Shown here piece after piece: positions 9,701 through 43,472 of a stretch of DNA of 64,000 bases. Source of the stretch: Metridium senile. Taxonomy: Eukaryota > Cnidaria > Anthozoa > Actiniaria > Metridiidae. The stretch spans positions 11,166,605-11,230,604 of the forward strand of contig OX459103.1 in the NCBI GenBank assembly GCA_949775045.1, given 5' to 3'. Numbering within the stretch: the first letter of the stretch is position 1; the number at the start of each line of letters is the position of its first letter. The notes below the pieces were generated by a model. The model ran no database searches, was not told the origin of the DNA, and saw only the letters and a program-made list of their open reading frames with translations. A program made the position numbers and the translations under genes.

Positions 9701-12700
9701 TTCATGAATTTTTTAATATATTATATTATATACATCTAATAATATTAGGATACCTGTGGTATGAGAAGTGTAACATACTGATTTAATGTGATTATGAAAA
9801 CACAAAAAAAAATAATAAAAGGAAAAGAAAAGGAATTTAAAGCAAAATTTTGCCGTATTGTATGCTAATTAAGATCTCATATCCAATCTTCCTTTACGGT
9901 TGTGTAAGTAAATAATAAATGAAAACCCTTGCCATTGATTATTGCTTTCAGCATGCTCATTATTATCACCTCAAGTAGTGACAACTGATAAAATGCCCAT
10001 CGAATGTCCATTTAGACCATCCTACTACCCTAACAACCAAGAATGCACGTGGCTTATCAGAGCACCCAAGGACAAGTTAGTCAAGTTCAGATTAACAGCA
10101 TACTACATGGCTCAACCAGAAGATTATGTAGTGGTACGAGATGGGCTTAACGAAAGCGCTGTGGTTTTAGTTGACTTCGGGAAAGGAGCTACTTACAAGT
10201 ACATGGCGTCTAGTAATAGGTTTTTATGGATCCAATTCAAGTCTGACAGCGTTGACGTCGGTAAGGGTTTCAAGATAACACTGAAGTTTGTTCCCAAATT
10301 GCAAGGTAAGCCAATAATAAGTTAAGGTGGCTGACTATTATACAAAAACCAGACAACTGCGCATGACTTCGCGCACATACGACATCGAGTCACGGTAGAG
10401 ATACAGGGAATCCAAACATTCATTTTTGTGCCGTATATTTTAAAGCGTTAAGCAATTTAACAGCCATTATCATGATTTAGATATGCTGTCATTTGAAAGG
10501 GATCTGTTTCACCTTGATATGTGTATTTAAAAAAGTAAAAGGAACTTCAAAGGTGGCCGAACTAGCGATTCTTTTAATTACAAAACTCACATTTCACGAA
10601 AAACGGCAAAATAGGACTCAAAACTTATCCAAACAACAATTGCAAAACATTAGTTAAATAAAACGAAAACATAAGCATGATATAAAAGGCATTTTCTGTC
10701 GAAAAGACATTTTTTTAGCACGTTTTTGTTGGAAAAAATAATGGATATGAAAGTTGAAATATGTCAAAAAGACGATGGAAAATTAGTTAAAACAAAACAA
10801 TGAACACATGAAATGATACATAGCGACATTTATTATAGCTTCTACTTACAGAAAAGTGAATTGCCTTTGAGAAATAATCCATAAACCTGTTTTATGGGAC
10901 GTTTTTTGAAAAAGAAATACTTCCAGTAGATGACAAACTTTCCCTCAACATCGCACGAGTGTTGCGTGACAAGATGGCGTAAGTTCAAAAGGAACAGCTC
11001 ATTGGATTGGGTAAAATGTATCCAATCAGAAATAACGTTGTAATTCTCCCGTTCCCAGGACTGTCAGAGTAGTCAAAATGGTGGAAAAAGCTGATTTTAG
11101 GCTCGTTTTTCTCTTACAACTCAATAATTCGCCCGGGACCCTATGATTTGTTTTTGATATTCAGGAAGAACAGGTAAAAATCGTTGTTTTGACAAACTTT
11201 AAGAAAGTTGACATTTCTACAACTTTATAATATAGCTTAGATAGTACGTAAGCTCTGATTGGTTGATTCACTCAAAAAAGCTATGCTCTATTTCACCGGT
11301 AGAGACATGGTTTTTGATTGACAGATCACAATTTTAATAAGACTATTTCTGTAAGCTACTACATTTACTAAAAACGGTTAAAAATATAAAAAGACTTTCC
11401 ATCTTGTGAAATGTCTATTAACCTAAACCCTGAAGCCTACGGTGCAATGACATGCAATTCAAATGCGACAAAAATCAGAGACATGGTTTTGAAAATACGC
11501 CGCCTTTTGACAAACTGTAAAGTTGTAAGTCAAAAGTTGAATTTGATCAAAACAAACAAAAACAAAAGGAAAACAGCGCTTCAAAGTGGCAATAATTTTT
11601 ACTTCATTTTATCCTTGACATATGATAATTTCATAGTGAATAAGTGAGATTTTTTTGCAATTGAACTCGATTAATCTTGAACAAATAGCTTGCATGTTCA
11701 TTGAATTTATCGACGGCAAAATATCACATTTTGTTTTATAAAAACAAACAAACACACAATCAATTACAGAATTATAAATGTGCTTTCTAGTTTTTTATTC
11801 TTATAAATAAACCATGTTTGAAAACAAGCAATGTGAACAAAAAGGCAGATTTACAATTATCTTTCAATTCTAGCCTCTCGTCAAAATGAAAACAGAAACT
11901 GATAAACCTTAAACCACGTTTGATTAAAAGTAAATAAATACATACTTTCTGCAGCCTAAGTAATCTTGTAGATGTGGTCTTTGTTCTTTTTAACTTCAAA
12001 ACGTTGTACACACCAAGCTTGTCTTGTTCAAACTGTTTTTTTTTCTCAGTGTGATAAATTGCTGTCAGTCGGCACGGCTTTCACTACTCAAATAAAATTC
12101 AAATTCGCTTGAATTGCTGTATATATGTCCGTCTTATGCAAGAGTTCAGCTAAAGGTTTTTGTTTTAGCCATAGAAGTCAACCAAAGCTATGTTTTAACG
12201 GTTATATGAAATTCCTTCTTTTTAGCTAGCAAAAAGACCCTGGAAGAAAGTGAACAGCGCCTTAGTCCCTTTTTGCTCAAGATTGCTCAATAGTACACTG
12301 ATTGTGATTCGTTCATTGGGCACTGTTGTTAGTTTTGAGAATTACAATTTTAATCAGCACATAAAACTACGTTTTTACGGAAAAACCTGCATTTCAGCTC
12401 GAGCTTTCAGCTCGTGATTTTATAACTTTTCTCGTGCTTCTCCCAACATCCGGCGTGCTCTATTTCACTGGTAGAGTCATAGGAACTGGCTTCTATTGCT
12501 TAAATAAAAAAAATACTGTGTCTGCTAATACAAAAGATTGTTTACGCTCGATTTCGGACTTTATGAGCATACATACTACATATTTTTTCACCTTACTCGT
12601 ACATATTTTCTATTAATTATTTAACATATCTCGAGAACAATCCTCACGTAAGATTGTCTGACAAAAATACGTCCACAGCTCTTTTAGTTTTTATGTTGTG

Positions 12701-42125: not shown

Positions 42126-43472
42126 GTGCTCTGATTGGTCCAAAACCGTGGTTTATTACACCGATAAACCACGGTTTTGAGAGTTTCGAAGGAACAGCGA
42201 AAAGTTGTTTGCTCCCTGTTCACTTTTTAAAAATGGCGTTCAAAATGTCGAGTAAATATTTTCTTTTTGTAAAAAAAAGCTGATATAAACAAATTAAAAA
42301 CAACAAAAACACTCAATGCATCACATAAACAGAACAGGTAGTTCTAAAAGTCGCTTTTATTGTTGAATAAGAGCGAAAAAAGATAAAAAAGTTTATATTT
42401 GACACTGAGTTATGTTTTTGAATTAAAGAGAAAGAGTACATTTAATACGCTACGCTGGAGGCATAAAATTCACGTAGACGTTACAAAACAGCAAGAAAAA
42501 TGTACAAAAAAGCAGCCTAATTAGGTTATTGATGTCAATGGATAAAGTAAGATATCTCTTCATTGAAGAAAGTGAAGTTAAATTTCACAATGCAAAAAAA
42601 AAAAGAGAATGACACGGCATCCAACGGACAAAGTTTAGCTCACAAATTATCCACTTGAATAAATAAGCTTGCAAAAACAGATGCCTTACGATATAACTAT
42701 AGTCAATATCTTAAGTATTCATCAATGCATTTATTTAATAACTGACCAACGGCAAATACATCTTTTTTTGTTCAAAGCAGGATTACCTGACTATCATGGC
42801 GTTTTCTGTTCGTCCGAATTTAGCGGTGAATCTAACTTGATTGAATGTCCAAACAATCCTCAACTCAAACCAGCCACATAATGTCGATGTCAGTAGTGAG
42901 TAGATATCATCTGCTGGAGGTTAAACGATGTCTAGATTTGTTTGTTAGTCAATAAATTCTTCATTATTACGACCAAAATCATCGGGGATTTCTCAACAAG
43001 AACCGGCCAACAAAAATGTTATTGACAACAAACTCGATCGTTTCATTAGCTTGCAAGCTACATTGATCCATAGAGCTTTGAATTGAGGCATTCTCCACTT
43101 GTATCTACCATATTCTCCCAAAAAATGTAAAAAGAATGTAATATTTTCATGAAAACATAACCTGCAGAATATAATTCTGTAGTTTTGAAAGTTGTAAAAG
43201 ATTTGTACATTTGTGCTTATAACAAGCGATTTGATTGGATGGTTTAGAATTCTCAGGAGAATTGATTTGTTCATCAGCAAAATGAAAAAAACAACAACTT
43301 CTTTTAATTCGTTTTTATTTCGTTTTTGAAACACTTTCTATATTATAAAACTTATATACTTTCTATTTACTCAAAAAGGCTGAAAATATCTCGCCCGGAG
43401 GCTCGAGATTTTCTTAGGCCTTTTTTCGTGTTCTCCCAACATCCCGTGTGGTTTATTACACCGATAAACCAC
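42126..43472 (+). mobile_element. element X2 bounded by identical lox-like sites
   Basis: The left end has GTGCTCTGATTGG (42126-42138), then the site 42148-42172: arm GTGGTTTAT, spacer TACACCG, arm ATAAACCAC (the arms extend to 15 bases, 42142-42178). The right end has TTCTCCCAACATCC (43431-43444), then an identical 25-base site at 43448-43472 in the same orientation, exactly 1300 bases away. Same plan as X1. The interior (short frames at 42669-42881 and, on the minus strand, 42993-43334) has no recognised gene. Confidence 0.65.

Follow-up and report, generated by a model that had tools for sequence, protein, structure and literature searches.

The window analysed here, 64,000 nucleotides of Metridium senile DNA (contig OX459103.1, positions 11,166,605 to 11,230,604), contains copies of two repeat families, X1 and X2, which we followed through the single genome studied (389 Mb, of which the window is one 64-kb stretch). 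We think it reasonably likely that X1 and X2 are non-autonomous CryptonA-type transposons whose movement exchanges one fixed strand in the manner of integron cassettes, with folded single-stranded DNA as the probable substrate. Both are decayed members of multicopy families: genome-wide, TTCTCCCAACATCC has 525 exact copies and ACGCGCGCTCTGATTGG has 794, each versus 1 for its reversed-pattern control, and X1-type 5′ ends have 246 versus 4 for the control. No relatives were found in viral contigs.

Aligned flanks of 31 X1 and 30 X2 copies showed that the elements begin with TTATAATATAG and end with TATTGCTTAA in X1 and TATTGCTTCA in X2. In this alignment, copies with the same 24-base 5′ flank were merged (L063 with L053, L068 with L008, and others) and CTT was required in the 3′ end; a recount without the CTT requirement gave 34 5′ ends for X1, 30 of them with the right arm of the terminal hairpin, and 30 and 29 for X2. 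The flanks and the empty sites agree on an insertion point of the form TAT-N6/element/ATA, with no duplication or loss. The three TAT bases were present in 28, 27 and 23 of 31 X1 copies and in 27, 29 and 27 of 30 X2 copies, and the ATA bases in 20, 28 and 23 of 29 and in 20, 21 and 22 of 25, respectively. A search with 61 filled sites with flanks returned 20 that matched across the junction; L003 and L043 (simple repeats) and L062 (below the display limit) were set aside, and 17 were compared in detail. The join was gapless at 14/17 loci (13/16 counting L008 and L068 once), some with single-base differences, while L011, L027 and L033 had a gap of 1–2 bases in or next to the join.

The six bases at the 3′ end proved to be the element's own, namely TATTGCTTAA in 30/30 X1 copies and GCTTCA in 26/29 X2 copies, the exceptions being L026 and L035, which differ by one base each, and the window copy, L009, which has a deletion there. 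The same was true for 7/7 copies of the L071 family and 7/7 of the 6377 family, two coding relatives described below, giving 70/73 copies over the four families. The six bases on the 5′ side of X1 and X2 vary, and at known targets they are the target's bases. A two-strand exchange with a six-base stagger would be expected to put the donor spacer at the 5′ junction of roughly half the copies. Exact donor-spacer 5′ junctions (GCTTMA-TTATAATATAG) number 3 genome-wide, versus the 246 exact X1-type 5′ ends; we therefore call the one-strand bias strong, though perhaps not absolute. At one locus, L076, two X1 copies are joined head to tail in tandem, and their junction is exactly as predicted for a circle. 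According to the accessible text of a 2022 curation guide, a short direct repeat is the only mark given for Cryptons (PMC8969392). Terminal direct repeats of 4–6 bp were not found in X1 or X2, where the 5′ six bases vary, the 3′ six are constant and the empty sites are clean.

Ordinary double-strand integration resembling that of Tn916, in which each strand ends up with one donor and one target spacer, would give the same junctions if mismatched spacers were always repaired or segregated toward one strand. This is improbable in our view: it draws on the fold match between the recombinase and Tn1549 Int and on two 5′ junctions that carry the donor spacer, but it needs a strict repair-strand bias in 70/73 copies and leaves the self-complementary end of the elements unexplained.

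That end has a defined architecture. Intact X1 and X2 copies finish in a 3′ terminal hairpin of ~190 bases, which is immediately preceded by a reverse-complement copy of the 5′ end of the same element (CTATATTATAA, corresponding to TTATAATATAG). The general plan is a 5′ end, an exact inverse of 9–20 bases near the 3′ end, and then a hairpin of ~130–190 bases whose right arm is the 3′ end. Taken together, the inverse and the left arm form an internal stretch that is the reverse complement of the circle junction, that is, of the 3′ end joined to the 5′ end. When the joined ends were folded in silico with DNA parameters, 8/8 elements from six lineages gave a long stem in which 1–3 bases stayed unpaired at the join (AA and CA in three elements each, CTC and G in one each); the exact inverses measured 12, 12, 12, 9, 13, 20 (the maximum searched), 11 and 12 bases. 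The hairpin sequences differ among lineages and the pairing is common to all. In 50-base blocks of X1, the ends and the hairpin are more conserved (0.988–0.999) than the body (0.956–0.983), and the three two-sided changes in the hairpin arms are all complementary, versus ~0.25 expected. Several lineages carry CTTGG in the left arm opposite CCGCG in the right arm, a recurrent asymmetry, although in some X2 copies both arms have GC. Nine copies (seven X2, two X1) have lost part of the left arm, at nine different breakpoints, as expected if copies truncated in this way no longer move, or if palindromes just decay once they are inserted.

The same elements might instead leave as a double-stranded (nicked) circle through strand-biased copy-out, as bacterial SE elements do, in which case the hairpin would be a cruciform or accessory site and single-strand folding would not be needed. 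In the accessible text of two reports, SE elements, which use tyrosine recombinases, show a one-sided fate of six bases through strand-biased use of a single spacer, an inserted SE being flanked by the target spacer at one end and the donor spacer at the opposite end, and at the att sites of one SE no attC-like inverted repeats were detected by the authors (PMC10214605, PMC9345347). However, an SE-type circle leaves unexplained both the unpaired bases at the join and the junction-complementary stretch, which is kept in six lineages with different sequence. SE elements are also longer than ours, with two recombinases and two other genes, and in their circles the six bases retained are those of the attL side, whereas here the 3′ side is kept. 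The SE gene set intA-tfp-intB-srap was not found, one recombinase frame being seen per element here. We accord this alternative a modest chance, clearly below that of a folded strand.

Five coding lineages share the plan: L072, L071, L074 and two elements of the window, which start at 26499 and 6377. Their elements are 1796–2206 bases long, with the one recombinase frame. L072 is a full-length relative of X1, having X1 ends, the left lox-like site, the hairpin and, in between, a recombinase gene; the first-pass annotation of the window, which had proposed tyrosine-recombinase elements with a recombinase that could act in trans, is supported in this respect. In L071 a 370-codon frame is open at 6 places. 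Matches to PF12012 (DUF3504) were obtained in 5/5 coding lineages scanned, above the Pfam cut-off in 4 and below it in L071; the Phage_integrase matches of L072, L071 and L074 fall below the cut-off. Residues R136, K170, H263, R266, H289 and Y298 are invariant in 48/48 aligned proteins (45 of 408 database hits, the L072 protein and the two window proteins), and the L071 and L074 frames have, by eye, the same catalytic boxes. An AlphaFold model of the recombinase (mean predicted local distance difference test score 82.4) matched QRICH1 best, and also Cre, archaeal Xer, Tn1549 Int and XerH, with all template modelling scores <0.52 and the integron integrase IntI (2a3v) at rank 26. Among the matches listed (120 of 408), the few relatives given with an organism name come from cnidarians (Exaiptasia, Actinostola, Actinia, Montipora).

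With the catalytic R-H-R-Y and a relationship of the DUF3504/QRICH1 type in the recombinases of the coding lineages, X1 and X2 are best read as CryptonA-type elements. CryptonA elements, in the part of their description available, likewise have a DUF3504-related recombinase, animal hosts including cnidarians, and non-autonomous derivatives, and no terminal repeats were found in animal Cryptons (Kojima & Jurka 2011, PMC3212892). Unlike CryptonA as described there, the elements studied here have defined ends, an inverse of the 5′ end, a terminal hairpin, matched lox-like sites (in four families) and a target rule (in X1 and X2).

The coding element at 26499..28692 (+ strand, as are all elements, sites and frames of this group in the window) begins with TTATAAAATTTTTGG and contains an open tyrosine-recombinase frame at 27086..28204 with DUF3504 and Phage_integrase domains (Pfam), the inverse at 28490–28503 and the 3′ hairpin at 28504–28690; a second copy, L069, is without part of the hairpin left arm. 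Between 28400 and 28500, before the hairpin, lies a second left-end-like stretch, GTGCGCTCTGATTGGCTGATTCTAACGTGTTTACG, also present in L069, which might be a duplicate made within the element or else an old element nested there. The element of the other lineage (6377..8402, its 3′ border uncertain by a few bases) begins with TTATTATATAACA and has a 455-amino-acid recombinase frame at 6613..7980 with the same two Pfam domains, the inverse at 8242–8254 and the 3′ hairpin at ~8262–8396; further copies are L070 and others. A third member of the window, at 2280..2583, is a non-coding L071-family element of 304 bases with the 5′ end TTATAAAATATT, its inverse within 2378–2393 and a 3′ hairpin at ~2394–2583. 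Another recombinase lineage, L073 (C1:36395800-36398200), has a 462-codon frame, found at six places, and a palindrome downstream.

The plan was not apparent at first, when only direct repeats were visible, because the window copies of X1 and X2 have both lost the left arm of the hairpin. These repeats are real. The 25-base site of X2, GTGGTTTATTACACCGATAAACCAC, occurs exactly twice (42148..42172 and 43448..43472) in direct orientation, 1300 bases apart from start to start (shuffle mean 0.00, n = 100), and X1 has its own pair, TGCTCTATTTCACCGGTAGAGACAT at 11284..11308 and TGCTCTATTTCACTGGTAGAGTCAT at 12456..12480, 23/25 identical and also direct. TTCTCCCAACATCC stands upstream of both right sites (12438, 43431). 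CTCTGATTGG, which we take to be an inverse CCAAT box, precedes both left sites (11253..11262, 42129..42138) as had been claimed, but it is not specific to X1 and X2: exact copies also lie at 2308, 16779, 26527 and 28421, and in coding relatives it sits in the 5′ region upstream of the gene.

The expectation that left and right sites co-vary held for four families and failed to extend to three lineages. Local alignment of left against right sites scored 22.5 in X1 (L072), 28.0 in X2, 24.5 in the L071 family and 23.0 in L047b, whose 5′ border was not set, compared with ≤15.0 between families. The element at 2280, as the second L071-family member, scored 14.5 against itself (best of 500 shuffles, 13.0) and 17.0/23.0 against L071. 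No significant pair was found in the 26499, 6377 and L074 lineages (9.5, 10.5 and 7.0; best of 500 shuffles 11.5, 12.5 and 11.0). Where present, the sites begin 46–60 bases after the 5′ end (L047b excepted) and end 19–23 bases before the 3′ end, and in intact copies both hairpin arms contain one.

A Cre/lox-like element, excised between two matched 25-base sites, would account for sites that are palindromic, directly repeated and co-varying in four families, that resemble the target and that other copies use as targets. The sites, however, had been taken for the element borders, and they are subterminal: the real borders lie outside them (TTATAATATAG ... TATTGCTTMA), and natural empty sites join at these outer borders. 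The deletion product expected from Cre-like excision has 0 genome matches at ≤2 mismatches, for X1 and X2 alike, and three lineages are without a significant pair. Cre-like excision as a transposition step is refuted by the absent product and the outer borders, and the Cre/lox reading as a whole is very improbable. We also rejected the earlier suggestion that insertion copies the sites from the target or matches them to it; they are constant within a family, whereas the target six bases vary.

The lox-like sites resemble the TAT-N6-ATA rule, and several copies are inserted within them. X1 has entered hairpins of other elements (L008/L068, L049, L053, L063), and X2 a left lox-like site (L022) and an X2 left site (L075). 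Insertions in lox-like sites of other elements make up 5/56 aligned X1 and X2 copies (L008, L049, L053, L063, L022); L068 is outside the 56, its flanks being those of L008. We do not claim strong enrichment, since the sites fit TAT-N6-ATA anyway and the host elements are common; TATN6ATA occurs at 229 places in the window, many in microsatellites. L053 and L063 look like independent insertions at the same base of one hairpin type, because their X1 bodies are 97.9% identical, whereas the nearest relative of L063 is 99.9% identical to it.

In the mechanism that we propose, the recombinase would cut the top strand only, directly 3′ of the six-base spacer of each end, and the released product would be a single-stranded (or strand-biased) circle with, for X1, the predicted junction CTATTGCTTAA-TTATAATATAG. 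Folding of this junction would create a double-stranded core in which the bases at the cut point stay unpaired. One strand exchange between the folded core and a double-stranded TAT-N6-ATA target would follow, and replication would complete the insertion. The lox-like pair may provide accessory binding sites for each family's own recombinase, flanking the core in the circle, and the left site might also serve autoregulation, because it lies before the gene. On the broader proposal, that animal CryptonA elements move as a folded single strand, carry their own template complementary to the circle junction and insert through one strand exchange by a tyrosine recombinase, we are evenly divided; the accompanying suggestion, that this recombinase is of the kind from which the QRICH1 and ZMYM proteins derive, strikes us as a balanced possibility too.

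Several observations weigh against this mechanism. The circle, the single strand, excision, cleavage and the activity of the protein, and with them the strand chemistry that we infer, are here predictions from the sequence. The constancy of the 3′ side would also be explained by a double-stranded circle of which one strand alone is exchanged, the proposal made for bacterial SE elements, and two single copies, L075 and L077, carry the donor spacer at the 5′ junction. The unpaired join bases depend on where the borders are placed; a single copy defines the border of L074, and the bases that follow ATCCTC in the 6377 family are nearly constant too (TATWTAY, 7/7), so the border there may lie further 3′. 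In that lineage the join forms an internal loop rather than a bulge, and the inverse of the 26499 element matches exactly for 9 bases only and has a one-base bulge. Covariation in the hairpin arms is thin, the 3 two-sided changes standing beside 52 one-sided ones, and in X2, whose copies are all close, the block with the hairpin left arm is the least conserved (0.960). We can state the TAT-N6-ATA rule for X1 and X2 only, with TAT on the 5′ side in 1/7 copies of the L071 family and 4/7 of the 6377 family. The lox-like pairs cannot be essential to the general mechanism, because they are not significant in three lineages. Finally, no sub-terminal inverse was recognised in L073 and its borders were not resolved to the shared plan; its ends may follow another one.

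Systems with comparable ends differ in part from the proposed folded strand. DIRS1-like elements, in the part of the source available, have an internal stretch near the 3′ end that is complementary to the joined termini, a tyrosine recombinase and no target duplication (PMC3266345). Our joined-end folds showed such an internal region. Unlike DIRS elements, those studied here have no inverted terminal repeats, and the complementary stretch forms a hairpin in cis with the 3′ end; no reverse transcriptase or RNase H was found in Pfam scans of the coding frames, and the size of the elements (1796–2206 bases) argues against either elsewhere in them.

In the integron attC site and the attP site of CTX phage, folding of one strand rebuilds a tyrosine-recombinase site with extrahelical bases, and one strand is exchanged. 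The attC-like hairpin with extrahelical bases is seen here as a predicted fold. Unlike integron cassettes, these elements are eukaryotic, carry their own recombinase and have no integron platform, although no search was aimed at an attI platform. The recombinase is of the DUF3504 type, with IntI far down the fold ranking. Both attC and CTX attP are mentioned in the accessible text of PMC9345347.

Rolling-circle elements of the Helitron or Helentron kind, with a 5′ end, an asymmetric inverted repeat, a 3′ hairpin and no target duplication, look similar in outline. Their enzyme is a HUH-helicase. Helitron2/Helentron elements share with ours a 5′ repeat, an asymmetric inverse and a 3′ hairpin, one Helitron type having hairpins and asymmetric terminal inverted repeats in the accessible text of the curation guide (PMC8969392), and insertion is clean here as well. 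They differ in target, which in X1 and X2 is TAT-N6-ATA, and in their short hairpins, compared with ~190 bases here. The 1.8–2.2 kb coding relatives encode a tyrosine recombinase, and their length leaves no space for RepHel, which was not found in them; Pfam shows recombinase-type domains only, and on this coding content we rejected Helitrons, a reading we find scarcely credible.

The ends and mechanism of animal Cryptons have long been ill-defined. Here the ends, the fate of the junction and a target rule for two families are explicit, and the mechanism is therefore testable with oligonucleotides. If single-strand folding is true, an integron-like reaction, of a kind known in bacterial integrons and filamentous phages, would operate in eukaryotes (animals), and the internal complementary region of DIRS would gain a DNA-transposon counterpart, tying Cryptons to DIRS. 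The plan also supplies a search rule for non-coding Crypton derivatives. In the accessible text of one report, human Eulor5 and Eulor6 are classed as Cryptons from termini similar to those of salmon elements (PMC5753468); both are candidates to examine for a sub-terminal inverse and a 3′ palindrome. Among the papers listed in our literature searches (titles and abstract openings, without most subscription journals, bioRxiv and Repbase Reports), none describes hairpin or complementary Crypton ends.

The X1 copy of the window (11225..12503, locus L039) is a non-coding CryptonA-type derivative that has lost the sub-terminal inverse as well as the left arm. Its 5′ end, TTATAATATAG, at 11225..11235, comes from the flank alignment; its right lox-like site belongs, in intact copies, to the right arm of the 3′ hairpin, and its 3′ terminus, TTCTATTGCTTAA, at 12491..12503, is followed by the target ATA. 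By eye, it retains an apparent decayed start of an L072-type first exon. The X2 copy (42101..43488, locus L009), also a non-coding derivative, has its left lox-like site within a 39-base palindrome (42141–42179) and, by eye, 8 bases fewer than other copies adjoining the 3′ terminus. Elsewhere in the genome, L040 carries a tandem duplication that took in X1 sequence and its flank, the two X1 hairpins lying 1225 bases from each other and sharing one flank sequence, and in L014 (~1300–1500 and 2940–3040) X2 lies in a tandem array with a unit like a 6377-type right end (TCTCCGCGCGCCCATGTAATGTCC).

The window holds other long palindromes at 36485–36642, 53213–53487 and 61089–61359, with similar ends in L035 and L038, which are possibly unrelated fold-back elements. 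Two frames are retroelement-like, one at 19175–19759 with a sub-threshold endonuclease-domain match and one at 34114–34863 that resembles an integrase tail by eye only, with no Pfam match. Repeated CUB-domain frames occur at 5456–6232, 13582–14121, 15932–16444 and 46167–47132, and those at 5456 and 46167 continue into short-unit microsatellites.

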